Below, piece after piece: positions 33,342 through 61,324 of a stretch of DNA of 64,000 bases (its first letter is position 1; every line of letters starts with the position of its first letter). Below the pieces are notes generated by a model. That model did no database searches and was not told the DNA's origin. It worked only from the letters and a program-made list of their open reading frames with translations. Source of the stretch: Scleroderma bovista (Eukaryota > Basidiomycota > Agaricomycetes > Boletales > Sclerodermataceae). The stretch lies in NCBI GenBank assembly GCA_037178675.1, contig JAYMGJ010000270.1, positions 62,001 to 126,000 on the forward strand. Direction: 5' to 3'. The position numbers and the translations under genes were made by a program.

Positions 33342-33552
33342 AACCCTTGGAGTTCAGCTGGAATATAGCCCGGGCACGGTTGTAGCATTTTCTGGTAGGC
33401 TCCTCAGGCATGGAGTGATCGAGGAGGGTGGAGACCAATGTTACCTCGCATACTACATGCGGGATAACATTCATAATTGGCTCGGAGTCCCCAGGCCAGA
33501 TCCAATGAGGCTTCACAAGGTCCAGGATGCGTTGTTGCAGTTGGAGGTGTAG
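33342..33552 (+). pseudogene. TET/JBP-like dioxygenase, C-terminal fragment 3
   Basis: 70 codons matching fragments 1 and 2: LGVQLEYSPGTVVAFSG, distal iron-ligand His in RLLRHGV, 2-oxoglutarate Arg candidate in YYMRDN, HNWLGVPRPD and a divergent C-terminus. It starts abruptly at the break of Gypsy-1. It faces the KDZ transposase at 35.3 kb, as fragment 1 faces KDZ-1. Confidence 0.65.
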
Positions 33553-33599
33553 ATTACCTTAATTGGCCATGACTGGTAGTCCAATACATGTTTCTGGCA

Positions 33600-34200
33600 G
33601 GATATGCTTTATCCATGTAGAACAATATGCTACTGGTATGACTGTTACCGGTCAGTATGCACCGGTATGACACACTGGTTGATATGCTCCCAGTATGACA
33701 GTGACCAGTCGGTATGCTACCGGTAAGACACTGACCGGTCGTGATACTGGTATGACTCTGACCGCCCAGTATGCTACCGGTATGATAGTGACCGGTCAGT
33801 ATGCTACAGATATGACACTGACCGGTTGGTATGCTACCGGTATGAAGGCCACCGGTATGACAGTCACCACTTGACTCGCTACGGGCTGAGTATAATACCA
33901 GTATGACCATTGGCAGTCAGTATGCCCATATAGAACAGTATCTTCGCAGGTCAAAACACAATACTAGGATGATACTGGTACACCACATAGCGGTCAGTAT
34001 GCTACCGGTATGACTGTTACCGGTCGGCATAATAGCAGTACCTTCAGTACTGGCCAGTATAACACCAGTATGACCAACACCAGTTCGTATGCTACCGGTG
34101 GGACAGTTACCAGTCAGTATAATAGTTGTATGTCCATTGCCAGTCGATATGCTACCGCTATACCTATTATCCAGTGTAATACCGGGATGACCATCACTGG
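33600..34200 (+). repeat. CCGGTATGAC array 1 (30-bp period)
   Basis: Degenerate tandem array of (15+15)-bp units around CCGGTATGAC and GGTATGCTA, the palindromic CCGG recurring in most units. Sister arrays, same orientation, lie at 43330-44165 and 50150-51290. Long open frames through the arrays arise because the period is a multiple of 3. Confidence 0.85.
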
Positions 34201-34459
34201 TCTGGTCTCTGTCTTCAAATACAATCCTGACAGGCTTATATTGCAAGCATCATGATTGCCAGTGTGTACGTGATTATTACCAGTCAATACCCCACATTTA
34301 TTACCGGTGACCATTGCTCTGTGTCTTGTATGTGCCCTACCGGCCACCCATTCAACCGGCCTAAGGCAGGACTGCATCATGAATGTCACATGGACCGTGA
34401 GAAATATCATTATCCTATTAAAGGCTTATATTTACCCAGGACCTCACTTGCCCGCAATC

Positions 34460-35231
34460 ATGTCTAACACCCTTGATGCCCACAATATCTCCCTCGCTTT
34501 GCAATACATCGGGGTTCGGTTCCGACGGTTTACCTATGTGCTACAGCAACCCAACCCACCTTCAAATTGGTTTGAGAATGTCATGATAGAAATTGTAAGA
34601 TCACCTGATTCTTATGGAAATCAATTCATATATTATACATTTAGCGCGTTCTTGAGCGATTGCTCTCTGCATGCAGTGCCTATGGTCTGATCATGCGGGT
34701 GCCTTATATCGCAAACCAATTCCTGTGGTGTGCCACTCTGGCAAAGATGCAGCAGGAGGAGATACTGGAATACATGAAGGGTCATGATGTATTCATGATC
34801 AGGACATCCGAGTCACAGATTCATCATACCAGACTGATGCTACACAAATGGTGGGAGATGCCCGGTACCACATTCCCTGATGGATATGAATCCTGGCAAA
34901 TCCCCCACATCATTTCGGAGGCCAAAGACTTTTTCCCTACTGTCTCGGTATGTATATTCCCTTGCCACCACATCCTGCCTTACATGATCAGCAGGATGGG
35001 ACCGAGTCCTTACCACTCCTCTTTGATGTCCCAAGAATGCCAAGGGACAGCATCAAATACATGATGAGTGGGTGTGATCTCATGCTGCATGAAATAGAGA
35101 AAGAGATGGGAAATGTACATATGGTGATGCAGGCTTCAGAGCAGCGGCTGAGTTTATTTGACAGTGTTCCCCATGTAAAAGAGCAATTGGGTAAGACATG
35201 GGAACGGTTTGTGACAGATGAAAAGAAGTAG
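34460..35231 (+). CDS. Gene D, unknown, convergent with KDZ-2
   Basis: Three-exon model: ATG 34460-34594, 50-bp intron 34595-34644, exon 34645 to about 34948, intron (GTATGT ... CATGATCAG), exon about 34996 to a stop at 35231; roughly 225 residues. The protein starts MSNTLDAHNISLALQY, has a helical middle (IANQFLWCATLAKMQQEEIL) and a charged C-terminus. No family recognised. A TTATATTT element lies about 35-40 bp before the ATG. It ends 32 bp from the KDZ-2 stop and lies next to array 1. No counterpart is visible near KDZ-1, so it may be private to this copy. Confidence 0.55.
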
Positions 35232-35262
35232 ATATGTTTTACAACCTACAACAATGTAGTGT

Positions 35263-38200
35263 TTAAATGGAATAGAGCCGGTGATATATCTGACGTTGCC
35301 GGGCAGCATAACAGGCAATCCCGATCTCATCAGATCTCAATGCTGTTTGCTGGCGGTCTGACCAGAAATTCAACCTACTTTGGAAATAATTTCTGGTCCA
35401 CTCCGCCTCACATTGTAGCATCTCCACTTCCTCCTTCCACCGGTCCCTAAGTGCCTTGGACCGGAACCAATGAACCCGGTAAACTAGATTTCCGGTTAAG
35501 TACCGAAAGCATTTTGTGATGATGCTAAGACATACATTCAGACATCCAATCATTCCTATCAGTATCTCGGGGTACATCCATGGTCCAGAACCAAGGGAGG
35601 GTATCATCCCTGTGGCCCCGAGCATTGGGGTCTGATATTGCAGTGGTGACCGAAAGGTCGGAGGCATGCAATTCCTGGTACCGGTCTAGAACCTGTCTAT
35701 CGGCACGGAGAGCTACCATCTGCCTGTGGCACTGGCGATATAATGAGGCATGGCGCTGTAGGGTGAGATCTGTGCTCGCTATCCGGCCCCATGCCCGGGT
35801 GGTCATATTATAATTACCGGCTTGTCTAACATCTCGCCTAAAGATGACGGCCTTGTCAGCCAGTGCCAGTCTAATTTCATGAAGGCAATCATTGGCTTGC
35901 CCCTGTCTCAAGGATAGTTCCTGTTCCACAAGGAATCCAAGTCCTAATCCCTGGAGATGGTCTATTCCAATATATGATGGCAGCAGTGGCAACATTGTTT
36001 CGGCATTTCCCTGTGTTGGCAAGACGAATGGATTTTCTATTTCCTCACCATCTGCTTGGTCGTCCTGAAATTGTAGGGCAGTGTCCAGTTCTACATCATC
36101 ATCCCAGTCTTCACCCAGAAACTGTGTGGCTGATGCAACTAATCCCTCTAACTGGGATTGTAGCCGGTCTCGGCGCCATGCAATTGATAGCTGTTGTATT
36201 TCAGTTCCGGATGTGTTGAGCTGCCGAGCATCAATGGCTAGCATTATCTGTGCTCCTTCAACCTTCAATGCCTTAGCTATCCATGTGGTTGATCCCCGAA
36301 GCCGGTCTTGTTGTTGGTTGATAAGGTTCATTTCTATCAATTTCATTGTTGGTGCTTCAGGCCATATTCAGTAAGGTTAACTCCATTTTAAAACAACATA
36401 CCCTTCTCCAGCTGAACATCATATATATCCATTGCACGGGGATCCATCATCCGGTCATTCAATGCCTTCGCCTCCTGCTCCGACCACAATTGCCGGAGAC
36501 CTTCCGGGACTTGGTTATTCAGTTTTTCAAAAGCTTCTGTAACCTCTGTCAACGAGCACTGGGCACCCCTCATTTTTCTCCTTAGAAACAATGCTTGTAC
36601 ACGTCAGCCAGCAGGGTCATGGTGAAGGGCATTGTTATACTCACGCATCCGGACCATCTTGACAAAATTGTGGTCATTCATTTGGAAATCGAGTAACTCT
36701 TGGCGATGCGGTGTTGCCATCCCCCTTGCAGATGGAGATATTATATTCAGTGAAGACCACAGTGTCTCCATGATCTCCCCATCCACTCTGCCGGCACCAG
36801 GAATAAAATTCGGGGCATATCTGGCAAAGCATTCTGTTTTATGCCCATGTACATGCCAAATACCGATCCCAGGCAAAATGCACAGTCCATCTGGTAGAGT
36901 GATGAATTTGTTGGACTGAATCCGCCGAGCCAAATTTCTACTATACTGGCAATTGATGTCGTAAAATGTTATCACTTGTTGGTTGGGATTCGATGCATGC
37001 CGGACTGCATGCACCAGAGCATAGTCCATGTTTACCTGCCTGTAACCAGCTCAACAAACTCGAGATGACAATTATGAGAACCTACTGTTCTCCCTTCTGA
37101 AAGTCAACCATTGCATGGGGGATGAAACATCCATGTCTTGCACATGCACATCCCCCAATCCCGGTGGATGACAGCTGTTTCCTTGCCGAATTTGCCTGAT
37201 TAACTGCCCGGTGATTGCTACACTCCAATCGCTTTTCAAAGGATGAGATATAGAACTTCCAGTGGTGCATTCCCTCACCTCTATCCGATTTGCTGTGCCT
37301 GCCAAGTACTCCTTGTAGTTACCTGAGCCTACCATGAACCCCCTCCCATCCATCAGCCACACCTCATCTGCAGGGTTCCTCGGTCTCATGTGCTCCGCCT
37401 TGAAATTTCCATCCATCACTATCGACCTCGAAAATTTCCAGCTACAAAGAAAAATGAATCTCCCCATCCCAGTGGAGCTTAAACACATTACATACTGGGA
37501 CAAATCCACATCAGTATCATCAAGGTTCACTCCGGGCTGTGGACATGCCGGACAAAACAGCACAAGGTCGCCTGTTGATGAACCAATTTCACTATCATCA
37601 ACTCCCTTCCATTTCATTAATTTTAGCACCCTCCACATCCTGGATACTCTAAGTAGCTCCCTGTATCTGTCCTATTACTGAGGTAAGACACATGTAATGT
37701 GTTTCCGGTCCACTCACCGGCACAAGGTGTGGAAAGGCATTGGATGTAATCCTGCGGAGTTTGCTGTAATAGTTCATGGCAGAGGTTCCACATTCCACAT
37801 TATCCTGGATGAAGTCATCCAATACCTGAAAGGTAAAGACAGTCCTTGGTTCCTTAGTGGTGGCAGGAAAGAGGCCGGCCATCATCAGCTGAAGGTGTGA
37901 ATCCGGTGACCCCTGACAGTTGCAGTACATCACATCGCAGAATTGTACTCCTGAAGTGTGCACCACAGTCAAGAAGGTTCTGCTGTTCGGTACTTTGAGA
38001 TGGGGAGGTGAGCCTGAATCCACAGATTCCTCATGGTCCTGTGCTCCTTCCTCTAGGTCATCGGAGAAATCTAATTCTGCATGACCACCACTCGGACAAG
38101 GATCCCCACCATGTCCAAGGTGCAGCACCAACCCCGCCTACAACATCAGACATTGTTATTGAGTCAGAATGAAAGCACTCACAAGCCGGAGAGAGGAGTC

Positions 38201-38824
38201 TTCAAAGAAGGCCGAATTCCATTGTTGAACCCGGTGGAAGGGCCAGAGCTTATGCTGGTTCCTGCAACAGGCTGTGCAGAACACCGGCCGGTGTGCACAA
38301 TCTATGCATCTGTAGCTGCCATCCCCACCACACAATATGCAAATCCGTGGACAGGGGGGAGCTTCCATGGCAAGAATGATTGAGAGATATTTCTGTTTAT
38401 GGGGCAGCCATGCCCGGAGATAGCTGTTCTAAAAGCGATGTCCATGAGATACAGGGTAATATATTGTGGAATAATACTCTACCTGATTTTTGGTCGTTTT
38501 AAATTGTTTCAAAGGAGGTGGATCGTCTAGCTCCTGGTAAGCATCTTCATCACCATTTTGAAACACATTGTGTTCTGCCATGATGGATGAGCAAGCCACA
38601 GTAGGAGATGCCTTAGATTGCATAGCCTGTCGACCCTTTCTTCTGGGAGTGACCTTTTGAAACTTATCAATTGATCCTCTAGTTGTTTTCACAGTCTTCC
38701 ACACCACATGGGTCACAGAGGTAGAAGAGGTCACTCCAGATATCCTCAACTTCCCCATGATTGATAGGCTTGGTGCAAACTTCAGTAGGAAATGCCTCAT
38801 TGCAACATCATGGATCACCATCAT
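35263..38824 (-). pseudogene. KDZ transposase (KDZ-2), nearly complete
   Basis: DDE-type KDZ transposase that would cut and paste its element in the nucleus. From ATG 38824: a basic disordered N-terminus; the CxC2 cysteine cluster (CILCGGDGSYRCIDC, CTACCRNQHKLWPFHR, LHLGHGGDPC; about 38060-38370); a central helical part; a zinc-ribbon-like CPACPQPGV; the KDZ domain with the first acidic residue in VMDGNFKAEH, LMDGRGFMV, GCACARHGCF, DINCQYS, the HVHGHKTECFARYAPNF motif and VDGEIMETLWSSLN; then a long helical C-terminus with an acidic DDDVELD stretch. At least seven GT-AG introns of 40-130 bp join in frame. One in-frame TGA (36603-36605) is the only visible lesion, so the gene died recently or the stop is an error. 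No terminal inverted repeats were identified. Confidence 0.88.
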
Positions 38825-38892
38825 CGCATCCGGATCTGTGTATCTTGTCTGAGATTGGTACCAATTGGCATCAGGAACATTAGGTACACTGC

Positions 38893-38902
38893 CTATATAT
38901 AG
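38893..38902. promoter_or_regulatory. Palindromic TATA element between KDZ-2 and gene A
   Basis: CTATATATAG reads the same on both strands and lies in the 190-bp gap between two divergent genes: 69 bp from the KDZ-2 ATG and about 111 bp from the gene A ATG at 39013. It could serve both. Confidence 0.5.
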
Positions 38903-39012
38903 TAGGTGATCTGCCGATTTGTGACATCGGCTACTTCTTATGGTTAGTGATCCACTGCACCGGAACCATAGCTAACCTCAAAAGGAAATTGTTCAGATCG
39001 AAGGAACTTTAC

Positions 39013-40782
39013 ATGACAGCTGAGGGAATTCCATTCAACATGGTGCACGCTATGATATGGAGGGCTTCACCAACAAAGTCTACCACATTCACAATGACTT
39101 CAAGCAACTCAGACTCCCATTCATCTTCTGAATCATCTCATCCTACAGAACCAGAGGATCCCACGACCACCGGACTGGTAGGGGAGAATACTCCAGGGAA
39201 ACTCACCTCCGAGGAAATAGAGATTCTTCATGCAAACCTTGAAGAGTGGAAGGCTTTAAAGGGGGACAGGAGGAAGCCTGTGAATAGGAGGGTCCGTGAT
39301 CTCATTAGACACCTGCCTGCAAATGAGTACATCTTGGGAGAGGACTGGAAAGCTAAGTTGGGTGTAGGTGATGTTGTATTCCGCTCTGCAAAGGCTAACA
39401 TTTTATAGCACATCAAAAGCTGGTTTTATAACCATGGCCAGTCCCGAGCACGCAAGGGGATGCTGAAGTGGGGGCAAAATTGGACTGCACGGAGGGTAAT
39501 AAGGGAGCAGAAGTGAATGGAGATTCAGCAAGAATTCCAACAGTGCGGTATCGGGGTTGGCAGCAAGGAAATGATAGGAGGGTACCAGAAGACCGTTGGA
39601 AGGCTGATGAAAAAGGTTACCGAGGATGAAATGAAAGAGGCAGAGTGGGTTGCTCAGGAGTGGAACAAGGTCCAACCACCGCCGGAGGTACAGGCTATGT
39701 ATGTACACATTTCTAATCTTTTGTATGATACACCTCACAGGTCTTCAGTGCAGCTGAGAAAAAAGGCCAGAAGTATACTCGCGAGTATGCAGAGACTATG
39801 TGGAAGCAGTGTGGTACCCAGGTGGTCGTGATGGTGGCTTGGAAGGATCAGAATGGAAAGGTGATGGCCGACATGTAAGTGGAAACATGGCAGTTACACA
39901 TTGAGATGACCGGAACAATTACAGACATGATTTCAATGATGAACTTGGGAATGTGAGTACATTTCTGGACTGGGAAGGAATGGAGGAAAAATGGTCGAGG
40001 TATGCTTCTGATGTATTCAAGGCTGGCAAGATTCCGGATGGAGACCAGGCAGATGATGAGGATGAGGATGCGGATCAACATCCTCGAAAGATTGTCAAGA
40101 AGGGTAAGAAAAAGGCACAAGTAAGCCTCCAAACCCTTGACAGCGGGATTCCACAACTTCCGAACATCCTTGACATGCATGTGCTGGAGAAACAGGACAT
40201 CATCCGGGCATTCGTGACCTGTCACTACCGTAAGTTACTTGGATTTAGGTGAGGGGTAACTAACTAAGGCACAATAGGTCGTGCTTGTGGAAAGGAAAGA
40301 GCAACTGTACCATGGATGAGCATTGCAGAAGACCTGCAAGGTTATATTGAAAGCAAGTACCTCCCTTCTGATGTCTCGTTGAAGGAACCTAGCAAAATGG
40401 GTGGTGTGCAAGTGACTCAGATCCTGGAATTCTGGAGGAGGAGACAACAAATCGATCCACAAGATGTATTTAGGTTCATGGCCTGGAAGGATGCCGAGGG
40501 AGCATTACAAAGGTCAGTTGGTGAAGATGAGCACCAGTCAGACAAGGCCCTTGGAAAGAGAAGGAGACAAGGTGAGTGAATTTCTCTGAATTGTGGAGTC
40601 TCTACTAAAAATATTACATAGAGGACCAATGGGATGAGGGTGATTCCCCCGATGAAGGCATTACTGACCGAACCAGAAATCAGAAGCACAACCGGCCTGC
40701 CCCAAAAGCTCATGCACTGGCCGGTCACACTATCGCAGTTCCCCCCACCCAGCCACGTCCACGCCAGAAGAGAGGAACAGGT
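39013..40782 (+). pseudogene. Gene A-1, KDZ companion, unknown
   Basis: Multi-exon gene divergent from KDZ-2. Start is ATG 39013 or 39094 (MTSSNSDSHSSSE). Exons encode a Ser/Glu-rich head; LTSEEIEILHANLEEWKALK; IKSWFYNHGQSRARKG, whose WFxN pattern recalls a helix-turn-helix recognition helix; a central helical part; LDWEGMEEKWSRYASD; an acidic then basic linker; ACGKERATVPWMSIAEDLQ; and VTQILEFWRRRQQIDPQDVF. A homologue (gene A-2, about 62.6 kb to the right edge) shares the last blocks with the same intron position after the HYR residues. An in-frame TGA lies at 39514-39516. The LTR-C repeat begins 100 bp downstream and may have removed a final exon. Function unknown. Confidence 0.6.
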
Positions 40783-40881
40783 ATGTTCATTGAATATAAT
40801 TGACAGGATAATGACATTATTATTAGATAATGTGGTTCCGGGGGATATTCCCATAGCCAGTTCTAGCAATAAGGAACCCGG

Positions 40882-43179
40882 TGTCACGCACCAAACGTGT
40901 TTGGTACTGTGGACATGGAGAAAGTTAGCTGATGAAACTAATGCGAAGAACGCACACCCAAGATCTGTTGAAAGATTGTCCCAACTTGAGGGATACAGAC
41001 AGCCCTCGCTATCCATATCACGCAAAGTCATGACTATCCTTATGCGAAGGATGAATACAAGCTTGTCATAGCCATCTATCGCACAAGAATGACTATCCTG
41101 GAGCAAGAGATGAATGCCATCGTCTGGCAGTCATCCCTCGCACAAGAACCGCCAAGAAGCAGAAGAATCCAAGGATTGATGATCATTTCAGTATGAGAGA
41201 GGAATGCAACCTACTGCAGTCCAACTCCCATACCAGAACAACCAAAGAAGCAGAAGAAACGATAGAGAAACAAAGGAGAAAAGGAAGAATCATTTTTAGT
41301 GCCCAAATGTCAAATTTAGGCGCCCAGTGCCGGCATTCCGATATTTTGAATAGCTCCGCCATTTTTGAAGCTATCAATCATGTGACTATACCATCATGGA
41401 GCCTAGACCGTGGTCTATCTGCCTGTCAAGTTCCGACGTAAATCCGTTCATTTCCCACGGAGATATTCCACCCGCAATCCAGACACCTGCTTCATCACTC
41501 ACTATGGAGTCCACATTTTCTCTGGAACGTTTCTCCGCTATTGCAGCAGACCTCAACTATGTCCTGCTCTTGGGACAGCCTCTCCCTGAGCTCCTGTGTA
41601 CTGTCTGGTACATATCTTCCCAGCCTGCTCCCTCAGTCCCTCTTGTTCTCGGTCAGCGCATTCTCCTTGTCAGTCCTGCGTCGCGCACATACTTTGGTCG
41701 TCTCAAGTCTATCGTTAGACTTGAAAATTCATACCTGGTCGTCTCTGTGTCTCCTGAGTCCTCTGCATATGGTCCTTTCATCCCAGAGTCCTGTCACATC
41801 CATCTCCCTCTATCATTCATCTCGCTTCCCTGGACACGTCGAATCCGCTACTTGCGATTCTCTTCCCTGCTATCCCGCAACAAACACGAATGAAACAGTG
41901 CTCTAGAACCCTTCTTAGGAGCCCTAATAGAGTACAGAACCTTCCCCTTACTGCTCAAGGGAAGACTGCACTTCGGGAGCACCAAATTTCGCGTTTTTGC
42001 TCTACAGAAGCTCAATCCAAGGGATTTGTGACACTCTGTGACCAGCTGTGACTCTACTTGTCATTCCAGGCCCCCTGACACTGCTCTTCTGGTCGGATCA
42101 ATTCTTTTATTATCCCCCAGCCACTCCCATCAGTGGCACTGCTTCAGAAGCTCATCTCCAGATCTAAAGTTCAATAAATCACAGGTTGTGCTTCCCTTCT
42201 GTCTGAGTCACACAGAGTCACTCTGGCTCACTCTGACTCACTCTGCTGCGCATTATTCATCCCCTCTTGGCATTACTAATCCCCATTACTCCCCTTACCA
42301 ATCACTTACCAATCATCCTTCAAATCATGCTTATCATGCTGCTTATCAATTCATGACTCATGCCCCTATGATTCATATGCATTATGTCATCACATATGCT
42401 CATTTAGCTTCGATCTTCTCATCCCATGCTTTCCCCACCTCTCTTTTGGGCCTTAAGCAATGATTTTTCCATATTCTTGGTTGTACACCCCTTTTTACCT
42501 ATGTTTTTGCTCTTTCCCTTGGCTCAGCAGCTTGTTCAGGCTCTCCCCATTGATGACTCAGCCTGATTACACTGCTTATCAATCGCTTACCAATTTCTTA
42601 CCAATCTCTTACCAAGCACTTAGTCATTTGTGCTTACAGGGCCACAGCCCCTCCTGTATATAAACCAGCAGCCAAAGGCTGCAAGGAAGTGTCTGCTTCC
42701 CCCTCAATAAAGCGACCACATTCACTCTCCCTCACTGTCTATAAGCTCTATCTCTGTCTTTGGACTTGTAGGTCACTCAGTGCTGGCCTAAAGCTCCTAT
42801 ATTGCTGTTTATCAGATATATCTTGTATCTGATCATTTCTCTAGGCTGAAGCGCAGTCTAGCATCACTGTCCACTCTATCCCATCACTGTCCATCGCATT
42901 CTTGAAGCAGGAACTGTCCCCTTGCTTCCCTGTTGTCTCCATCACTGCTGTTACACCCCTGTCATCAATCTATCATCGCTCTTCTATCCCAGGACTCTTC
43001 CTAACCACTGTGGTAGGCTGAAGAGGAGTCAATACCATCCCCAGTTGCATCTATTCCCCATCAGAAGCCCTTCCCTTCCCTCCTGCATCCTGCCTGAAGG
43101 CGTGCAGCACATCCCCCTGAGGACATTAAATACCAGAAACGCAAAGGAAGACCACCACTCGCATATTGCTGTCATTTGG
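40882..43179 (+). mobile_element. 2.3-kb LTR-like repeat (LTR-C), copy 2
   Basis: Second copy of 13822-16116, same orientation, with the same TGTCACGCACC start, TATATAA core (about 42658) and AATAAA signal. It separates genes A-1 and C-1, which are direct neighbours in the other copy of the gene set. The right shared edge again reads CTGTCATTTGG. Confidence 0.7.
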
Positions 43180-43329
43180 TGTTGGTTGTTGGTTGTTCTG
43201 ACCTCTTCCCTCACTTAGGCGCACACCGGTCCTGGTAATACAGTCCAGCAGGATCATGATGCACCTACACCCCGTGATAAAAGGAAAAAGAGATAGATTA
43301 CATATATATATTTTATGAATGTGTCCTGT

Positions 43330-44165
43330 TGTCTGGTACCTATTGATATCATTACCACTGGTCTCATCCCATATGATACCAGTATCCTTATCATCAGCGG
43401 ATCACTGCCGGTCACCATACTAGCAGTATTGTCAGCACTGGCCCACACAAGACCAGTATCCTTATTATTGGCCAGTACAATCTGTATAATTATTATAGGT
43501 CAATTTGGAACTGATCTGGTCTGGTATCTAACAGTTGTGTTCTTAGACCATTATGTTTGTATAATGATTACCAGTTCACTACTACCAGTGAGTATACTAC
43601 CGGTATGATCACAACCGGCCGGTATGCTACTGGTATGGTCACTACCAGTAGGTATCCTATCGACCGGTGAGTATACAAGCAGTATGGATTATTGGCCAGT
43701 ACTATCTTACCGGTATGGGTACGATCGGCCCACACTATACCGGTATTCATATCAGCGGCCAGTACTATCTGCATGATTATTCCACTGTCAATATTCCACT
43801 GATCTAGTCTACTATCCACAGGCCAGTACCATCATCTTAGTATCATAGGCCGGTATCATGACCACTAATGGGATGGTCACCACCGGCCCACACAAGACCA
43901 GTATCCTTCCAGTGCAATCTGTATAATCATTACTAATCAATATGCAACTGATCTGGTCTGGTAGCTACCGGTATGTGTAGCACCAGCCCACACAAGACTG
44001 GTATCCTTATTATTGGTCAGCACAATATGTATAATTATTACTAAATATGCAACTGATCTGGTCTGGTATCTAACAGTTGTGTTCTTAGACCATTATGTTT
44101 GTATAATGATTACCAGTCACCACACTCCGGGTGTAGTCACCACCGGCTACATCGGTCTGATGAAG
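43330..44165 (+). repeat. CCGGTATGAC array 2, degenerate
   Basis: Diverged array of CCGGTATG/ACCAGTATCC-type units mixed with longer repeats: a block at about 43475-43575 recurs at about 44015-44125. Lies in the intergenic space between convergent genes A-1 and C-1. Confidence 0.7.
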
Positions 44166-44193
44166 ATTGCATTGGTACTACAAAAGTACTACA

Positions 44194-45232
44194 CTACAGA
44201 AGGGATGGATCTAATTTTACTGTTGCCAACCATTGCATCTCCTCCTTTTCTGCTGCTTTGGCCAATTCATCCCGGAATTTTGACCATACCCGGTGCTGCC
44301 GGACCAACTCCCTCCATCGGCTGGTGGCTTCCACCAATCTATTTGCATATTGGGTATATGCTGCAATTAGTTGGCTATCTTGCATGGGGTGGATTGGTTG
44401 CTCATTGAAAAAAGTCACCGATCTGGTGATTTGCCTTGCCATTTCCACTGTGATTGTGTCAGACAGCATAACTGAAGGGCTCCAGACATACATTGTGTCA
44501 GGGGTACATCTCCCTCCCGCACAGCATACCTTGCAGACTCCCTTGCTAATAATTCATAGAGCTCATCTAGCGGTATGCAAACATTAGGAATGGGTTCATA
44601 GGTGGCATATAGCAGAACCTACCATCATCATTTCGCATCTCCAGAGATGCAGTATTGTGCTTTGAAGCTTGGGGTGTTGCAGATGCACAAAGTGGACTCT
44701 CAGTGAGATCAATAAAAACAGGGCCAGTGGTAGGTTTTGGCCGGACTGCATTGCTGTGGGAGGTATTTGTTCTGTCCGGTGAGTGCCATGGGGATCCGAG
44801 GGGGGGAACAACGTCCCTGGACTGACTCCTGCGAGGTGAATTGAGGCGTGGAGTGGCAAGAGGAGTAAACGCATGCATAGTAATAGATGGTGAGCCAATT
44901 TGGGGTTGAAATAGAGAACCGGATGGTGAAGACATTGGTGATGCCGAAACCCATGAGTGCTGCGCCACCGGTGAGTCAAATGGAGGGGGTGAAAGTGATG
45001 CAAATGAATTGGGAGATAATGGGGATGAATTAGATATATCATGGGGGATGGAACAAGACCTTTCCGACATAGGGGAGAAAGTGATTATTGGTTCCGGCCC
45101 ACAGGTGAATTCGGTGTCCTCGGAGAATGAGTGGAGAGGAGCCTCAGGAGTTGGGGACGAATCAGGGGAGCCAATGGGGGGTTCTGAACCTAGTGTGAAG
45201 CTTTCATCGGCACTTTGCTCATCGACCGACAT
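44194..45232 (-). CDS. Gene C-1, KDZ companion, unknown
   Basis: Two or more exons. The first, from ATG 45232 (MSVDEQSADESF), encodes a long Ser/Pro-rich disordered region with repeated SPxS motifs and a FIDLTESPL motif resembling a SUMO-interacting sequence. After an intron (donor at GATGG|GTAGG near 44626, acceptor TTATTAG near 44550) follow CKVCCAGGRC and a helical C-terminal domain SQLIAAYTQYANRLVEATSRW ... KLDPSLL (split here only for length). The C-terminus is clearly homologous to gene C-2 (MIAAYIHYANTLLDTARLW ... VLDPSKL). Function unknown; the start is uncertain because the frame is open upstream. Confidence 0.6.
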
Positions 45233-45780
45233 GGCATCCTCATCCTCCTCCACTGTGGTGAGTGAACTGGGGCATGAACTTCCACCGGGTGAAGGTTGAA
45301 TGACTACAATAGTTTGTCACATATCAATGGGAAATTATTGGGACTTACAGTGCTTCACCTGTCTTGTTGACGAGAACCTTACACATTTTGTTGAATGTTT
45401 GGTATCCATCAATGGAATTGTGTTTTGTGAGAGTAGAACAAATAGGATGCGAACAACCGGGTCAAGGGCAAGAACACCAAGGTGTATTATATAATCAATA
45501 TGATCACCAGTGCAGTTTGGGTACCAACAGCCAAGCAAGGACCGGTCACTGGTTCCACCACATTGTCATGTGTGAATTATGTTAATCACTATTATTCATG
45601 AGGTACATATGATTACCGGCGACTAATTGAATTCACCAGTGTGTGTTTGTGGCACTGAAGCAACCGGTTATTGATTTTACATGTGTTCCATTTATCTTGT
45701 TTTTTGTCTGCATATCATAATTTGTATTGGACCATTGTGCACAATACATGGGAATATGTTATGTAATCATTTTCAACAAT

Positions 45781-45787
45781 ATATAGT
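45781..45787 (+). promoter_or_regulatory. TATA box of gene B-1
   Basis: TATATAG 88-94 bp before the B-1 ATG (45875). Genes B-2 and C-2 have TATATAA/TATATAT at 85-97 bp before their ATGs. Confidence 0.45.
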
Positions 45788-47513
45788 GGCCATACTGGCA
45801 TATTTCCCTTGCCTTTCCTCCACCACATTCACTCCCATCGAATCCCATCGCATTCAACTGCAAAACCTTTATCCATGTCATCACAAGCCAAAGCCTTAAC
45901 CTCCTCCATCGGCACCGGTGAGGACCATGCAAAGGCGATTGTTACCCAGGCAGCCAAGGTCATACGGCAATATACCGACGGTCTCAAATATAATAGCACT
46001 ACGGAATACTGGAAGGAAACCACACAGGTTGTGTGGGATAGGCTGGTGAGTTATTAGTACATAGTTTGATATCTGTACCCATCAATCCCAAAGAAAGAGG
46101 TCACTGCCGTTGTAGATCAGTTGCCGGCCGGCTTTGCAATCCCGATCCATGTCATCGCGGCCGATGCCTTCATGGTGAGCCCCGACTCACTTCTTGAGGC
46201 GAAGAAATGGCCACCTTGGGAGCGCATCCGTCGGGCAAAGGACAAAGACATCGAGGATCACCCATGGTACAATCTCCGGGAGCCCGCCCTGCCAGTTCCT
46301 CCTGCACCAACAACAACACCGGTAACGCAGGTGAAAGGAAAGGAGAAGGAGAGGAATGAAGACATGGATAGTGGGAAATTAGGTGAGCACACCACATTTA
46401 TAATCCCAATTGATTTCTGTTCTGAAGAGCCAAGGTGCAGGAACCGAGGAGAGTGGTGGAGAGTTGGCAGGACGCCGGTCCCGATCCCGGCCGGCCGGTC
46501 TGTCTAAGAAAGGGAAGGAGAAGGCAAAGGTAGTGGAAGATCCACAAGGTCACATAAACCAGGGGATGTCTGGTAAGCAATATGACTGTTGGATTGACAC
46601 GAAGGTGTTTTCTGATAAAGGTAATGTGCAGACAAGCAGGATGGTGGTGGCCCGGTGGTAAGACACTGGTCTCGGTCCCGAGCGACCATGCAGTCAAAGA
46701 AGGGGAAGGAGAAGGAAGTGCAAATGCAAGTGGAAGTGGAGGGAGAGTCACAGAGCATGATCACTGGGGGGAAATTGGGTAAGTGAGGTGCCATTGATAC
46801 AATGGAGTCAGGCACTGATCAACTCGGAATGTAGACAACGAACAGGCCGGTGGAGAGCAGGCCAGAGGACGGTCTCTTTCCCGACAAGCCGGTGCATCAA
46901 ATCGGAATCAGAGTAAATCCCGAGGACACACACCACATATTAAGTCTGCACCTACTGTTGACAGCGAGGAAGATCCTGATATGCCACCGGTCAACCCCAC
47001 TCAACCAAAAGCATCATTCCTTGCGCCGGTAGGATTTGGCCCTGTTCCACCAGAGGATTGGTGTGATTGATGTCGGAAGGGTGACAAAATGTGCTTGGTA
47101 AAGCCAGGTCGGGCTTGCTTAAACTGCAACAAGGTAAAGATGAAGTGCAGTTTGACCGACAGGCTTCGTGCCCGATCTCAGGCCCCATCTGAGGCAGCCA
47201 CGACCACAACCCGGCGACATCGCTCCCCTTCCAGGGTTCCATCTGAGGCAGCCCCGACCACAACCTGGCGACGTCGGTCCCCTTCCAGGGTTCCATCGGA
47301 GATTGCCCCTGATTTCACCCCACGGCCAGCAAAGCGACAACGGTCGTCCAGCATCCACCCTACTCCTGGACCATCGAAGGCCAAGGCAGGACAGGTTGAA
47401 AGGTCCTCAGGCAAAGGTGAGTATCATCCATGCTTTGTATCCTTGCATTCAAATCGCTGAACAGGTTTTGAAGTTTATATTCAAACACCTTCATTGTTGC
47501 CAAAATCAAAGTC

Positions 47514-49026
47514 TGTCATATCCATACTTTTCCAGTTGCAACTCCGGTCTAACCATGGCCCGCCTGACCTCTCCTTAGGCATAGATGCAACTCCGGATCT
47601 AGTCCAGCCATCTCCAGCCCTATAGCTGCACTCCAGCTCAACTCCGGTCACTACGTCCATCTCCGCTGAAAAGATAACAATGTGTTTGGGTGGCTGCTCC
47701 CTCAGATGAGGTGCATTCGACCCAGGGACTTCTGGAGGTCTGGCAAGGCTCCCAGAGACTAAGGAGACTAGGAAACTAGAGAGTGGAAGGGTGGTTCAGT
47801 CACTCCAAGACTGAGCTCAATGATATACACTGAAGAGAAGGATATTTGCTTAGTAAGCTAAGTACAAGCCTACATAGCTAAGGTAAGAGTTCAGTATCAG
47901 TACTACCAATCTACACACCCAGAGACAGGACTGTCTCTACACCGCCTCAGGACTAACCCCTGTCTTCCTACAGACAGATCCGCGGTCTAACTCCTCTGTG
48001 TCGGACCTGTACCTACCACTAGTCGCTACTCCGGTTTCAGTCCGGCCACTCCCTTAGCCTTGTCTGCGACGTAGCCCAACTCCGGCTGGTACATCCAACT
48101 CCGGCTCAGTTCTGCTCCTGCTCCTGCTCCACTTCCTCTGTCAGGTCCACCAAAGGCTTAGGACATTTCCATGTCCAACTCCGGACCTTCCTCCGGCTAC
48201 TCCGCCCTTCCTCCACCTGTGCACTCCCTCCGCTCTTGCACTTCCTCCGGTCCCACTTCCTCCGGTCCTGGACATCGCTCTGGACTTAACATTAGTTAAG
48301 TCCACCTCTGACCCTTACCTGTCCTCTTCCGACCTAGTTCCCTTGTCCCTGCTTTTCCTCCATCGTCCCTGTAACTCTAGTTCCCTGTGTCTGCTTCCGC
48401 TCCGGTTTATTTTCCTGTCCCTGCTTTATTTTCTTGTACCTGGTTTATTTTCCTGTCTGCTTCTGCTCCATCCCTTGTCTCGACATTAAGGTGTTTACTT
48501 GTCACTGTATATACTCACCTTAGTTTCATTACTATATAAACTACCATACTCCGGCCTAGTAGTCCTTAGATCAAATCTCGACTAAGATACTCCCCACTCT
48601 GTACTACCCACCATGCTCTCCTAATCCCATCTTGTTCTCCTGAACTCCAGCCAACTCCGGCCTCGGTCCTATCTCGTCCCCTTGGTCCTATGTCCAATCC
48701 TAGCAAGTCTCCTACTTGCACAAGGGCAAAAGCCACCTCTGTCCCAGACTCGACGCTAGACCTCTCAGGACTATCCCACCTCTGGGATGTCCTTCACTCC
48801 AGACAAGCTGCGCTCAACTCCGGACCACTTTCCCACGGTCCGGACTTACTCCGCAAAAACCCGGACTTACTCCCTGTGCTCCTCTAGTGCCCGGACTTCA
48901 TTCATTTGACCCGGACTTGACTCTCCGCACTAACTAGCACCTACTAGTGTCTGGACTTACCTCCTCATTAGTTCCCTGCACCTCTGGACCTCCTAGTAAG
49001 ATCGTTGAGGAGAACCAGTCTTGACA
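47514..49026 (-). mobile_element. Solo LTR, family A, copy 2, with nested LTR-B
   Basis: Reverse copy of 31227-32506, 1513 bp including a 275-bp nested element. TGTCATATCC ... GGTCTTGACA flanked by AAGTC at 47509-47513 and 49027-49031, a perfect 5-bp target duplication. It lies within the reading frame of gene B-1. No internal region remains, so it is a solo LTR left by recombination. Confidence 0.92.
47667..47941 (+). mobile_element. LTR-B element copy 2 (275 bp)
   Basis: TGAAAAG ... CTCTACA flanked by CCGC (47663-47666 and 47942-47945). The uninterrupted family A LTR at 31.2-32.5 kb has CATCTCCACCTCAGG at this place, so the empty site is visible within the window and confirms the 4-bp duplication. 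Confidence 0.92.
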
Positions 49027-49791
49027 AAGTCCCGTGATACCAGTGTTGCCTCAACCTGTGCAGCATCTGCCACCGACCCTCCGACGTCCCCATCTGCTGT
49101 TGCGACATCTGGCATGACCGAGGGTGAGTGGTTGCAGGATGTGGAGGAGGAGGTCTTCCTTCTCAAGAAGGATATTGCGAGGATGAAGGAGGATACCGAG
49201 GAGAACATTGTCCTTCTGAAGAGAGATAATGCAAGGATGAGGGTGGAGTTGGAGCAGAACCGGGAGGAGCTGGAGACACTCCGGGCACTTGTGGAAGCTA
49301 TGCGCGAAGACCGGTTCCCCACTGCTCCTGCACTCCGTGACCCTGCAGTACCTTCTCCGGTCAAATGTCCTCCACCTGGTATGCATGGATCTCTGCCTTC
49401 TGAACATTCTCAATGTCCCAACATTTCCCCATCCATCCGGGCATTGTTTGATCTACCTGCAGGTTTGTGCTTTTGTTTTCCGATCTCTCGAATTCATGTT
49501 TTGAATGGTGCAGGTGACACTCCAGGTCCCAGTGCTGGTACCGACCACCAGGTATCTGCAATTCCGGCCTGTGTCCCTCTGGAGACCTCGGACATGGATA
49601 TTTCAACAGCCTCCACCAACAGACTGTCACAGGTGGACCCAACACCTGCTATTACCATGGGGATTCAGCCATCCCCCATCATTACCGTCAGTCCCCCTGC
49701 ACCAGAACCTCAAGATGTTGGTACTCCGGCATCAGAGCAACCAGATGTTGCAATGGGTGAAGGAGGCGGGGACTCCTCACATAAGGACTAA

Positions 49792-50149
49792 TTTTGTTTC
49801 ATTGCCACAAACTTTGTATTTGTAGTACAATTAGTATCCTTTGTTTGTGTAAGAATATATTCCTGTGCATGGCTATGATTAAATGTGTAAGTGATCTACT
49901 TGTATGCTTAGCACCGGTCAGTCAGGCCAATGGCCCATTTCTTTACTTATAATTATTGTTGTACCATTGCCAATATTATCATGTGATGAATTACTAGTTT
50001 ATATTTGTCACCCAACATTGGATACTACTGGATGATGAATCCCGGTCAGCACACTACTGGCATAATCATGACCTGTCAGTGCACACCAAGTATGATCTTC
50101 CCATGGTGGTTTGCTTACCATAGTATACTAACAATGTACTCATGCCTTT
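49792..50149. other. No gene seen; B-1 3' flank
   Basis: AT-rich unique sequence after the gene B-1 stop. No coding frame or repeat recognised until the CCGGTATGAC array. Confidence 0.4.
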
Positions 50150-51290
50150 GATTAGCTTGAGTGGGCTTGTCTTATAGCACAGCCGGTATGATTATGACCG
50201 GTATGTACACCGGTGTATTCATGACCGGCAAGTGCAATACTAGCATGTCCATCATCTGCCAGTACTCGGTCTGTTGTTACAATATAATTTTGGTATTGTT
50301 ATTACTTGTCAGTGCTGTCCTTGTGAAAGTATCACCGGGCAGCATTCTGCCAGCATGGTGTTGTTTACCACCAAACAAAACAATACCAGTATCCATATCA
50401 TCAGCCAGTACCAAACTACTGGTCGGTCGGTATGCTACTGGTATGACAGTGACCGGTTGGTATGCCACTGGTATGTACCGGTATGATAGTGACCGGTGTA
50501 GAGACAGTCCTGTCTCTGGGTGTGTAGATTGGTAGTACTGATACTGGACTCTTACCTTAGCTATGTAGGCTTGTACTTAGCTTACTAAGCAAAAAATCCT
50601 TCTCTTCAGTGTATATCTTTGAGCTCAGTCTTGGAGTGACTAAACCACCCTTCCACTCTCTAGTTTCCTAGTCTCCTTAGTCCCTGGGAGCCTTGCCAGA
50701 CCTCCAGAAGTCCCTGGGTCGAATGCACCTCATCTGAGGGAGCAGCCACCCAAACACATTGTTATCTTTTCACCGGTTGGTATGCTACTGATATGACACT
50801 GACCGGTTGGTATGCTACCGGTATGATAGTGACCGGTGAGTATGCCACCGGTATGCTACCGGTATGATAGTGACCGGTGAGTATGCCACCGGTATGCTAC
50901 CGGTATGATAGTGACCGGTTGGTATGCCACCGGTATGCTACTGGTATGACAGTTACCGGTCGGTATGCTACAGTGATCGGTCGGTATGCCACCGGTATGA
51001 CAGTTACCGGTTGGTATGCCACCGGTATGACAGTTACTGGTTGGTATGCCACCGGTATGACAGTTACCAGTCGGTATGCCACCAGTATGACAGTTACCAG
51101 TCAGTATGCTACTGGTATGATAGTGACTGGTCGGTATGCTACCGGTATGACAGTGACCGGTTGGTATGCCACCGGTATGATAGTGACCGGTTGGTATGCC
51201 GCCGATATGACACTGACCGGTTGGTATGCTACCGGTATGACACTGACTGGTTGGTATGACCAATTAATCATTACTGGCCAGTACACCACC
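50150..51290 (+). repeat. CCGGTATGAC array 3 (30-bp period)
   Basis: The most regular of the three arrays: GGTATGACAGTTACC and GGTTGGTATGCCACC half-units alternate to give a 30-bp period, best at 50770-51260. An LTR-B element (50497-50772) interrupts it. Confidence 0.9.
50497..50772 (-). mobile_element. LTR-B element copy 3 (276 bp)
   Basis: Reverse copy, TGTAGAGACAG ... ATCTTTTCA, flanked by CCGG at 50493-50496 and 50773-50776. Removing it restores the array unit GTGACCGGTTGGTATG, so the duplication is genuine. Confidence 0.92.
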
Positions 51291-51429
51291 TGAATGCTTA
51301 TCATTAACTTGTACTACTTGTATAATCATTTCCATTCAGTACAGTACCAGTCTTGTCTTTGCTAATACATACAATCCTGACATGGCTATCATCAGCCTGG
51401 ACTTGTTTCAAATATTTTTTCCTCTCTGG

Positions 51430-52556
51430 CCTGACCATACACTTATTGTGACACCCACACCCAGGCCGGACTATCCATTATGGTGACACACCTACCCGGC
51501 CCGACCATACACTATGGTGATGCCCACACCCAGGCCGGACTGTACAATATGGTGACACCCCTACCCTGGCCTGACCATACACTATGGTGATGCCCACACC
51601 TAGGCCGGACTGTACAATATGATGACACACCTATCCTGGCCCGACCATACACTATGGTGACTCACCTACCCTGGCCCAATCATACACTATGGTGATGCCC
51701 ACACCCAGGCCGGACTGTACAATATGGTGACACCCCTACCCTGGCCTGTCCATACACTATGGTGACACCCACACCCAGGCCAGACTGTATATTATGATGC
51801 CACCCCTACCCTGGCCTGACCATACACTATGGTGATGCCCACCCCCAGGCCGGACTGTATATTATGGTGACACCCACACCCAGGCCGGACTGTACATTAT
51901 GGTGACACACCTACCCTGGCCTGACCATACACTATGGTGATGCCCACACCCAGGCCGGACTGTACAATATGGTGACACCCCTACCCTGGCCTGACCATAC
52001 ACTATGGTGATTCCCACACCCAGGCCGGACTATCCATTATGGTGACACCCCTACCCTGGCCCGACCATACACTATGGTGATGCCCACACCCAGGCCGGAC
52101 TGTACAATATGATGACACACCTATCCTGGCCCGACCATACACTATGGTGACACCCACACCCAGGCTGGACTGTACAATATGGTGACACCCCTACCCTGGC
52201 CGGACCATACACTATGGTGACACCCACACCCAGGCCGGACTGTTCAATATGCACCCATACCCTGGCCTGACCATACACTATGGTATCACCCACACCCAGG
52301 CCGGACTGTATATTATGGTTAAACTACACACTCTGGCCAGACCATACACTATGGTGATGCCCACACCCAGGCCGGACTGTACAATATGATGACACACCTA
52401 TCCTGGCCCGACCATACACTATGGTGACACCTACACCCAGGCTGGACTGTACAATATGGTGACACACCTACCCTGGCCCGACCATACACTATGGTGACAC
52501 CCACACCCAGGCCGGACTGTTCAATATGTACCCATACCCTGGCCTGACCATACACT
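51430..52556 (+). repeat. 35-bp satellite with 70-bp higher-order period
   Basis: About 32 units of 35 bp. Two unit types alternate: one with CACCCAGGCCGGACTGTACA and one with CTACCCTGGCCTGACCATAC, each ending in -TATGGTGA. The dimer gives a 70-bp higher-order repeat. The copia LTR (52560) begins directly at its right edge. Confidence 0.9.
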
Positions 52557-52559
52557 ATG

Positions 52560-52847
52560 TGTTGAAGCAATACCTATATACGTAGAGGAACTGCTACTCC
52601 AACTCACCTGTTGGGTGGAGTGCACAACCAGAGATGGTAGCGATAGCTGGTCAAGAGCTGTTGTATTATATAAGCGATGGACACTGTTTATATACAACAA
52701 ATAGTGTGACACGTGACTGTGATGCGTGATGTGTGACATGTAACATCTACTCTAAAGAGGACTATTACTAAGTCTACACTAATATGGGTCGCAGTCTTGT
52801 GCGCACTTCGTCGACGGTTTACGCCAGGTGCACGTGCGACTTCAACA
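52560..52847 (-). repeat. Copia-2 3' LTR (288 bp)
   Basis: Same length and ends as the LTR at 7550-7837. The polypurine tract GCGAGGGGGAG (minus strand, 52848-52858) abuts it. Confidence 0.93.
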
Positions 52848-55988: not shown

Positions 55989-56009
55989 GCACATAATGCA
56001 CCTGCATTG

Positions 56010-57500
56010 TCCCATACAACACAGACAGACGAAGCTGACAATCGGCCGTGCTACATGACCAGCTGAGATAGGGCCCAGCCATGGTGCATCCCCATGTCAT
56101 ACGAGTGGGCTAATGGTAAGGTGTTTCACCATGCCATATTGGTGGCTCATGGAAAGGTTGTCACCAAGTAATATTGGTGGGCTGACACACTAGTACACTA
56201 GATCAGGATATGGCCTGTGGCAATAGGACCTAATGCGGCAAGGGAGCTGCGGCATGCGGCCAGAGGACTATATGCCGCAGATTCAGGCCGAGGATTGCAG
56301 GGGGCTTGCCGCAGCATTTCGGCAAAAGGACGGTAGTAAGTGCTGCAATGCGGCTAGCCTGTGGATGGGAGTCAATAGAAGGGCCTCTGTACCAGTGTCC
56401 CATGCTTTGCATTTGGCTGTGGTATTGGTGTCCTGTGCTTTGCATTGGGCTGTACCTTTGGTGTCCCTTTCTTGTTGCAGGGCCAGCCAAAGAAACAGCA
56501 TCCCGTGCTTTCCAATGGGCTGCATGCATGGTGTACCTTTAAGAATACCCAGCCATGGGATTGGTGTCCCATGACTATGAGTAGGCCCTGGAGCCAGTTT
56601 CATCTATTATGTGCAGGGCACATGGCAACAATAGGTACAATGTCCCATAGCATTAGGTGGGCCCTCAGAAAGGTGTTATCTACCTATATGGGAGGGCCTT
56701 GCAGTACACTTCAAAGTGACAGGCTATGAATGCGGTGTCCCAGAGCATTAAGCAAGCCCTCCTTCTGGGGACACCTAGCTAGATGGGAAGGCCAGCTGAT
56801 ATGCTTCCCCTTCAGTATGATCGGCCATAATGTTTGGCCTCCCAATATACACAGCAGGCCCTTAGAACTATATCCCTTGTATAAATGTAGGGCCGGGCAT
56901 CTGGTCTTCTCTAAAGTAGCGGTAAGCCAGGTGTGGCACGACACAATCGGCACTACATGGCATTGGCAGAACACACTGTTGGCAGAACAAGGCTGTCAGC
57001 AGAACATGTTGTCGGCAGAACAATGCTGTCGGCAGAAGAAGGCTGTCGGCAGAACACGCTGTCGGCAGAACACACTGTCGGCAGAACACACTGTCGGCAG
57101 AACAAGGCTGTCGGCAGAACACACTGTCGGCAGAACAAGGCTGTCAGCAGAACACGTTGTCGGCAGAACAACGCTGGAGGCAGAACAAGGCTGTTGGCAG
57201 AACACACTGTCGGCAGAACAAGGTTGTCGGCAGAACAAGGCTGTCGGCAGAACACGACTGTCGGCAGAATTGTTTTTCGGGCAATGTCGGATTTGAACCG
57301 ACGACAGCAGCGGCACAACATGTCATCAGCAATCTACCATCAGCATAATAGAATTGCGGCATTACAAGAACGGCACAACATAAATACTGGTAATGGCTGT
57401 GCAGCTATCGCGCAGGTGCCGCAATACCTTGCCGAGAATCACAAACGTGCTGCAGTAATAGCCGTGCGGCCATCATGCTTGCATGTGCGGCAATATGGGA
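56010..57500 (+). repeat. Segmental repeat block, copy 2
   Basis: Copy of 11690-13089: CCCATACAACAC start, GCGGC-rich part, ggtgtccc/aggccct repeat (56390-56930), a 17-bp NGGCA array and the same tail (CTATCGC..GGTG..GCAATACCTTGC). Directly precedes the B-2/C-2/A-2 gene set. Confidence 0.75.
56940..57290 (+). repeat. 17-bp NGGCA array (CGGCAGAACAAGGCTGT type)
   Basis: About 19 units of CGGCAGAACA(A/C)(G/A)(G/C)CTGT, a regular 17-bp period. Lies upstream of gene B-2. Confidence 0.92.
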
Positions 57501-57960
57501 ATGACCGTGCCGTGTGGCAGTGTCGGCACGGTTGTGGACACCGGCATTTGCCACTGACATACTGGCCGGTGGCAGCCAGGCTAGTGGCTGTGCGAATAAG
57601 TACCGCAATGATAACATTAAATTAATGATGGCCGTACCGCAATGACTGACATGCGGCATTGATCCCTTTCTCAAGCTGCGGCTGTGTTAATACATGCCGC
57701 ATTGATTGTTCCCTGAGAGACACACTCCAAAATAAGGCAAATCATAATGCCGATCCGAGATCCCTTATTATTGTGATGGGACAATGCACTGTGACAGCCA
57801 ATCACAAGCAATAGAAACACGGCCATCATGCAATATGAAATGCGGCAGTGTGGTTCATTAGCCGAATTGTCAGGACAATGATTGGTCGGACTTGTGGCTG
57901 AATTATTAACCTATATTTGATTTAGTCCACTTTGGTGTGCGACCACAATGCAAACATGTT
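57501..57960. other. No gene; NGGCA-rich upstream region of B-2
   Basis: Scattered TGCGGCA/GCCGCA motifs in both orientations but no regular array or coding frame. Probably upstream sequence of gene B-2. Confidence 0.4.
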
Positions 57961-57975
57961 GTGGTGTGAAATGCT

Positions 57976-57982
57976 TATATAA
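57976..57982 (+). promoter_or_regulatory. TATA box of gene B-2
   Basis: TATATAA, 91-97 bp before the ATG at 58073; spacing matches B-1. Confidence 0.5.
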
Positions 57983-58072
57983 TACGTTGAACATCCTTCA
58001 GGCTGCACGGCAATCGGACCCAGTTCTTCCTCTCAACCACTGCTTTACCATTTCCACATCCTTACAGTCTAT

Positions 58073-61215: not shown

Positions 61216-61232
61216 GTGGTGAGATAAATGAA

Positions 61233-61240
61233 CTATATAT
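61233..61240 (+). promoter_or_regulatory. TATA box of gene C-2
   Basis: TATATATG 85-92 bp before the C-2 ATG (61325). Confidence 0.45.
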
Positions 61241-61324
61241 GGAAACCATTATTATATAATCATTCAATTGTGATTTCCATTCCACGTCAATTCCATCTTG
61301 TCAACTTGCATCTTTGCTACCGCT

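Follow-up and report, generated by a model that had tools for sequence, protein, structure and literature searches.

Family-specific CGG-containing words and a predicted zinc-cluster protein in multigene KDZ transposons of Scleroderma bovista

Introduction

Iyer and others reportedly gave, in 2014, the first account of the association between KDZ transposases and TET dioxygenases. Mushrooms have TET genes on their transposons by the dozen, which raises the questions of what these genes are for and whether their enzymes are directed at all DNA or at chosen DNA. The present analysis concerns a stretch of 64,000 nucleotides of the Scleroderma bovista genome (contig JAYMGJ010000270.1, hereafter C270, forward-strand positions 62,001 to 126,000), which we call the window. 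A first-pass annotation of the window had proposed a large KDZ-linked mobile unit in which a KDZ transposase is packed with four companion genes, A, B, C and D, and which brings its own DNA-binding factor. We report that these genes, together with a TET/JBP gene, belong to multi-copy elements of several families (F1 to F7), that the elements are enriched in short CGG-containing words that differ between families, and that B encodes a predicted zinc-cluster protein.

The closest described systems are transposons of fungi and plants. TET+ Kyakuja transposons of Agaricomycetes lack inverted repeats, have CA..TG ends and duplicate 7 bp of the target, where Zisupton duplicates 8 bp; according to Kojima, the TET of each transposon family works for that family (PMC12730594). 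The elements described below resemble TET+ Kyakuja in their KDZ transposase, TET/JBP gene, 7-bp duplications and 5' CA, and perhaps in lacking evident inverted repeats, but differ in ending with TC instead of TG and in the presence of family words and of four additional genes; the passages of PMC12730594 consulted name neither companion proteins nor family words for Kyakuja. In Arabidopsis, VANC21 binds a short word that is dense only in its own family, and the word of VANC6 is another one; such words have spread in the form of tandem repeats (PMC5735166). VANDAL/VANC is, by analogy, the nearest proven system to the mechanism that we propose. Both are multigene DNA transposons with an own-family short word that is often arrayed and differs by family, whereas the elements here have a transposase of another superfamily, an element-coded TET and, in F3 and F5, the word inside genes. 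VANC activity was shown in Arabidopsis (PMC5735166), whereas the likeness here consists of sequence features only, with the family word at high density. Finally, Cryptococcus KDZ1-KDZ3 share the KDZ transposase with the present elements but differ in having terminal inverted repeats of 139-241 bp, duplications of 4-8 bp and CxC1, and the excerpted text of PMC12810828 names no companion gene set like A-D for them.

Results

Matches to the five annotated genes, and to a TET/JBP gene that the first-pass annotation had lacked, were collected from one genome of 51.8 Mb in 850 contigs, to which all counts refer. For KDZ, 150 of 166 matches are listed (150 of 317 candidates scored), and for Tet_JBP 150 rows (150 of 159 candidates scored). 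After pieces of one copy had been merged, which removed 26 of 150 D rows, one of 144 B rows, one of 140 A rows and one of 69 C rows, there remained 124 rows for D, 143 for B, 139 for A and 68 for C. Among the matches listed, a KDZ gene lies within 10 kb of 83 of the 139 A rows, 52 of the 143 B rows, 40 of the 68 C rows and 79 of the 124 D rows, compared to 7.8, 8.0, 3.8 and 7.0 expected by scatter along a genome treated as a single line with contig ends ignored. Likewise, 103 of the 124 D rows lie within 10 kb of a listed TET match (7.0 expected). Homologues mostly unlinked to KDZ were thus looked for in this genome, and linkage far above scatter was found instead. When listed rows and element ends were joined across gaps of up to 8 kb, so that neighbouring elements can merge, 32 clusters contained all six genes, 23 five, 15 four and 33 three, and smaller clusters contained two genes (64), one gene (139) or ends only (70). 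Many gene rows stand alone; contigs are short, and the rows are the matches listed. We conclude that A, B, C, D, KDZ and TET are linked, multi-copy genes of one mobile unit.

Element borders, found by comparing near-identical copies, are sharp. The genome has 201 matches to the sequence that opens the left end, CACATAATGYACCT, and 152 to the one that concludes the right end, AGGTRCATGGGCTC, and the backward-read patterns give 0 matches each. Of these, 100 left ends (of 201) and 100 right ends (of 152) were listed, and they formed 27 correctly ordered pairs on the same contig with spans of 3-30 kb. The test covered 22 of these pairs together with the copies on C441 and C700 (pairs on C76, C95, C126, C211 and C212 were left out). 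An exact 7-bp target duplication flanks 10 of the 24 pairs, and an exact 8-bp duplication flanks none. Among 552 wrong end pairs formed as a mispairing control, one matches over 7 bp, and this sole case fits two copies that share their left flank (C139, C233). Sixteen of the pairs are 13.5-22.9 kb long (five with an exact duplication) and eight are 4.7-8.6 kb long (also five). These eight short two-ended versions lie on C1, C47, C139, C207, C217, C233, C264 and C277 and are likely non-autonomous derivatives. Common outer ends and target duplications, which the first-pass annotation had suggested as a check, were both found, and the large KDZ-linked mobile unit that it proposed is supported in this genome.

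The 5' end of the elements is CA, and next to exact 7-bp duplications the 3' end is TC in place of the Kyakuja TG, with the reservation that our right-end search pattern itself fixed TC and other kinds of end lay outside the search. When CACATAATGTACCT was compared by eye with GAGCCCATGTACCT, the opposite end in reverse complement, the two had no more than ATGTACCT in common near the tips; in F1, part of the subterminal arrays is inverted. The KDZ domain PF18758 is present. The TET/JBP gene lies whole inside complete elements, with PF12851 matches within C441, C700, C288 and a second unit on C270, and the catalytic HxD and downstream H can be read in F2, F3 and F5 (HRDP and RHGV). Since the transposase, the target duplications and the 5' end match those of Kyakuja, although the 3' end differs, and since a TET/JBP gene is present, we assign the elements, as judged from these features, to a known kind of mobile unit, TET+ KDZ DNA transposons, which we label "Kyakuja-type" and do not call Kyakuja.

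Gene order varies between families, with two prevailing layouts. In families 1, 2, 5 and similar ones it reads T- D+ K- A+ C- B+ from the CACATAATG end (T, TET/JBP gene; K, KDZ transposase), with T on the + strand in family 1, and in family 3 it reads B+ C+ A- K+ T- D+. Between these layouts the C-A-K block is inverted and B and T-D swap places, and the direction of B and D relative to the ends is kept. One family-7 copy (C306), which has no target duplication, shows a third layout; starting at its left end, the order is B- A- K+ D- T+. Across families, the layouts look like modular reshuffling within fixed ends.

Family words, also absent from the first-pass annotation, were tested in seven copies of four families (F5 by one complete copy) and in 2.7 kb each of F4, F6 and F7. 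They are ACCGGT in F1, CACGG in arrays in F2, TGCCG in F3, CCGCGG in F4 to F6 and GCGCGG repeats in F7, where the array consists of TGCGCGGACTC-like units; the words hold CGG or CCG plus a CpG. Counted on both strands, so that a palindrome counts twice, and compared with the dinucleotide expectation, ACCGGT occurs 132 times in the F1 copy on C122 (6.4 expected), CCGCGG 76 times in F5 on C288 (2.5), TGCCG 184 and 236 times in two F3 copies (40 and 45) and CCGTG 158 times in F2 on C700 (52), and CCGCGG reaches 40 in the F4 piece (1.3) and 20 in the F6 piece (0.8). With tandem repeats masked, the best 6-mer was ACCGGT in F1 (z 18.2 and 17.7), TGCCGC in F3 (z 11.5 and 10.3) and CCGCGG in F5 (z 38.8), compared to at most 7.0 in 40 shuffles that kept dinucleotide counts. 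Seven control stretches from outside the elements, with 3-11 kb shorter than the elements themselves, gave 4.1-6.7. Genome-wide, CCGCGG is not enriched, since its 7400 sites in the 51.8 Mb (about 0.14/kb) compare with 7239 of the reversed word, and the pair ACCGGT-N9-ACCGGT occurs 346 times against 14 for its reverse. CGG or CCG makes up 0.65-0.76 of CpG contexts in four elements and 0.36 in one control stretch.

The words are placed differently. In F1 and F2, the majority of ACCGGT and CACGG sites, respectively, fall outside the K-A core, and many are close to the ends, whereas the F3 and F5 words run over the whole element, genes included. F5 has 38 CCGCGG sites in 19.2 kb (1.98/kb), its gene part carrying 2.0/kb and the remainder 1.8/kb, and their spacing is no more even than random scatter (P 0.09). 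In a 5.6-kb derivative with family-3-like ends, of which 3.0 kb was examined, TGCCG occurs 16 times against 3.6 expected and GCGGC 17 times against 2.6. The family-specific enrichment of short CGG-containing words is new here, and the filling of elements with their own word suggests that they may mark and protect themselves.

Zn2Cys6 domains follow the spacing rule C-x2-C-x6-C-x(5-12)-C-x2-C-x(6-8)-C, and CGG/CCG triplets are their known target. The six cysteines of the B cluster are invariant in all seven families and fit this rule, and in a Foldseek search with the cluster ranks 1-10 of 14 were Zn2Cys6 DNA-binding domains. Downstream, a coiled-coil-like stretch of the unit-1 copy is hydrophobic at 11 of 19 a/d positions compared to 15 of 48 others, in the best of seven registers. 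B shares six-cysteine spacing and a downstream coiled-coil-like stretch with GAL4, PPR1, Leu3 and Pho7, and perhaps the predicted fold, and differs from them in being transposon-borne, in its sub-threshold PF00172 scores and in a basic Ser/Arg-rich stretch past the cluster. Single relatives of B were seen in Scleroderma citrinum and among unnamed metagenome proteins. The nearly identical zinc clusters of F4, F5 and F6 go with a shared CCGCGG, the differing clusters of F1, F2 and F3 with other words, and F7 has its own array. B may be described as a Zn2Cys6-like, predicted DNA-binding protein, and together with the word enrichment this lends support to the own DNA-binding factor of the earlier proposal.

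As the first-pass annotation had noted, A, C and D resemble no recognised family: by Pfam they appear to be three proteins without a known family, and the tried pieces of A, B, C and D gave no match above the curated cut-off. A gave a weak, sub-threshold GTF2I-like match and has single relatives in Scleroderma citrinum, S. yunnanense and Pisolithus tinctorius. D found no protein at E 0.001 among 5.8 billion. The AlphaFold model of an A homologue (P0024) has a mean predicted local distance difference test score of 46, and its loose MADS-box and helical matches were not used.

All genes of the proposed unit were located in the window copy, unit 1 (Table 1), whose order in window direction is TET/JBP remnant, D(+), KDZ(-), A(+), C(-), B(+); ACCGGT-rich arrays lie in the intervals of these genes and beyond them. 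The earlier interval of 33342 to 51290 holds a real unit, but not an intact one: its right subterminal array continues to about 52560, and the copy is decayed, a state that had gone unnoticed. A is split, B is interrupted, both have acquired stops, the TET gene is cut and both termini are lost. A complete element at this place is thereby ruled out, and the terminus patterns of the window lie elsewhere, at 7876(-), 27699(+), 55990(+) and 29729(-), the last three with one or two mismatches. DNA of the TET remnant is 97% like C122:11865-11999, which overlaps the Tet_JBP match C122:11591-11980, and the first 1.7 kb of the insertion in A is 94% like C122:5352-7055. This insertion sits at CCGG inside a CCGGT stretch, the core of the F1 word; it is a single case.

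Table 1. Features of unit 1 and unit 2 in window coordinates (exon and gene ends of unit 1 set by eye; LTR, long terminal repeat)
Feature	Position	Strand	Basis or remark
T: C-terminal remnant of TET/JBP dioxygenase gene, PGTVVAFSGRLLRHGV...YYMRDNIHNWLGV	33342..33552	+	translation
ACCGGT-rich array separating T from D	33600..34200
D: gene without known family, three exons	34461..35231	+	kept beside TET and KDZ
K: KDZ transposase with CxC2 cysteine cluster	35263..38368	-	PF18758 5.9e-30, PF18803 1.9e-25 (Pfam)
A: gene without known family, in-frame stops in this copy	39094..40882	+
LTR-like insertion splitting A	40882..43246		not at same place in C122
A: last coding piece beyond insertion	43247..43295	+	alignment picks up at C122:19246
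ACCGGT-array-related repeats, A-C interval	43420..44117
C: Ser/Pro-rich protein, short conserved C-terminal part	44194..45386	-
B: predicted DNA-binding protein; stop within zinc cluster, LTR-like insertion	45875..49791	+
Zn2Cys6-like cluster of B, C-x2-C-x6-C-x7-C-x2-C-x6-C	47062..47148	+	cluster studied on copies from seven families
Solo-LTR-like insertion in B, AAGTC flanking each side	47514..49026
Coiled-coil-like stretch of B	49109..49320	+	sequence, a/d positions
ACCGGT array on B side, broken by LTR-like piece 50494-50776	50388..51318
35-bp subterminal array, last retained part of unit 1	51390..52560		like subterminal arrays of C122, C340
Unit 2 (family 3), first 8 kb within window	55990..64000	+	termini; likeness to C280
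B' of unit 2, zinc cluster 58879-58965	58074..60242	+
C' of unit 2	61326..62626	+
A' of unit 2, continues past window end	62690..64000	-

The diverged homologues of A, B and C that had been noticed at 58.1-64 kb belong to unit 2, a complete family-3 element at window 55990-75927 (C270:117990-137927), whose KDZ, TET and D genes lie just past the window end (C270:129233, 133850 and 135513). Unit 2 is without a target duplication at its ends and is 96.6-98.9% identical to C280 at the DNA level in six of seven blocks and 91.7% in one. B and B' share 42% identity over 77 aa, and A and A' 39% over 97 aa. The observation that A and C are convergent and B adjoins C in both places was borne out, with the refinement that B and C are divergent in unit 1 and on the same strand in unit 2. 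The zinc-cluster stretch of B' is repeated by an exact 203-bp tandem duplication (window 58884-59289), and this stretch is apparently single in C280, as judged from overlapping match blocks.

Further element pieces surround the two units. Window 27699-30515 is the left 2.8 kb of a family-5 element, 97.8% like positions 1-2806 of C288; its left terminus has two mismatches, and it is family-5-like, not family-1-like. A lone left terminus CACATAATGTACCT at 7876-7889 (-) with a diverged continuation marks a further element end, and another TET/JBP fragment lies at 13506-13763 (-) (C270:75506-75763). A third, family-3-like element lies in pieces from about 42.1 kb of C270 to window 4224, interrupted by some 9 kb (-12.6 to -3.7 kb in window coordinates), with a KDZ match at C270:61048 and a TGCCG-rich window 0-5 kb. 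The window also holds Copia-type pol pieces at 4218-6548 and 52897-55919 (-) (Pol_BBD, gag_pre-integrs, SH3_retrovirus; rve, RVT_2), a Gypsy-type integrase piece at 22809-24578 (-) (Integrase_H2C2, Tf2-1 SH3) and a dynamin central region piece at 26139-26891 (-) (PF01031, 6.9e-11).

Discussion

We lean towards the reading, suggested by sequence and by analogy with VANDAL/VANC, that B of each family addresses own-family DNA to the element's TET and perhaps its transposase, which would result in self-addressed anti-silencing and mobilisation. In this model, B would bind the CGG word of its own family, which in F1 and F2 is offered chiefly in arrays that separate or flank the genes, and in F3 and F5 along the whole element. 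Bound B would bring the element TET to its own copies, where TET would remove or oxidise 5-methylcytosine at the CpG-bearing sites, and might also bring the transposase there; word and zinc cluster would change together between families. The wider proposal, that these are self-addressed TET+ Kyakuja-type elements in which a Zn2Cys6 reader and a family word co-evolve, as a fungal enzymatic counterpart of VANDAL/VANC, is offered more tentatively, as a possibility that falls somewhat short of probable.

TnpA of Spm is a subterminal-repeat binder that aids end pairing. B and its word could similarly serve transposition only, helping the transposase to pair the ends, with TET acting without an address. 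The location of most F1 and F2 sites outside the K-A core and often near the ends would fit, as would the short derivative that retains termini and CGG words, and Kojima's speculation that Agaricomycotina TET acts without target specificity (PMC12730594) points the same way and against our model. End pairing alone, however, does not need a word along the whole element, so the spread of the F3 word and the near-equal density of the F5 word in genes and outside count against this explanation, which we regard as unlikely. Enrichment could also be mutational, caused by array slippage and by CpG loss elsewhere that leaves CGG contexts, without any binding function. Much of the F2 word does lie in tandem arrays, and the observed/expected ratio of CpG is 0.46-0.65 in four elements compared to 0.69 in a control stretch. 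This explanation loses weight in F1, F3 and F5, where masking leaves scattered copies of the word that are far above dinucleotide-keeping shuffles; moreover, families in one genome keep different words, and slippage does not make the dispersed CCGCGG of F5. We consider it quite improbable.

Alternatively, the word may be real but read by the CxC2 cluster of the transposase, or by A, instead of B. The transposase has a cysteine cluster and A is conserved in the elements, yet the words contain CGG/CCG and signs of a Zn2Cys6 fold were seen only in B, which makes another reader very unlikely in our view. A host origin of A, B, C and D, in a segment duplicated beside a KDZ element, has nothing in its favour beyond the two sets in the window and is refuted, since linked copies number in the dozens and have ends in common as well as target duplications.

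Several observations weigh against the model in which B addresses TET to own-family DNA. B rows lie within 10 kb of a listed TET match in 11 of 143 cases compared to 8.0 expected, not clearly above scatter, and B and TET sit at opposite element ends. For the zinc cluster, Foldseek E-values were 0.34 or worse, PF00172 reached 14.2 and 15.8 bits against a cut-off of 21 in two of five B clusters and gave no match in the other three, and a zinc-cluster profile search of PDB sequences returned nothing. The F2 word lies in tandem arrays and, contrary to expectation, was not the best word outside them; after masking, the best 6-mer was poly-T (z 7.4). The words of F4, F6 and F7 come from 2.7 kb each, and the F7 B piece also holds three CCGCGG sites. 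In the 5.6-kb derivative, too, the top-ranking 6-mer is not the family-3 word but CCGCGG (three sites; 6 against 0.2 on both strands). Since the F4 B gene is still 72% like that of F5 and 83% like that of F6 at the DNA level, F4, F5 and F6 are not independent cases of a shared word and zinc cluster. Finally, 13 of the 24 end pairs have no 7-bp duplication and one has it with a mismatch.

A transposon-coded, possibly CGG-reading protein with words that differ between families offers a concrete way in which an element-borne TET could act on its own elements. If this is true, it would be an independent case of the reader-word coevolution known from Arabidopsis VANDALs, and the Scleroderma elements would provide, ready-made by nature, a series of zinc-cluster proteins each matched to its target site.

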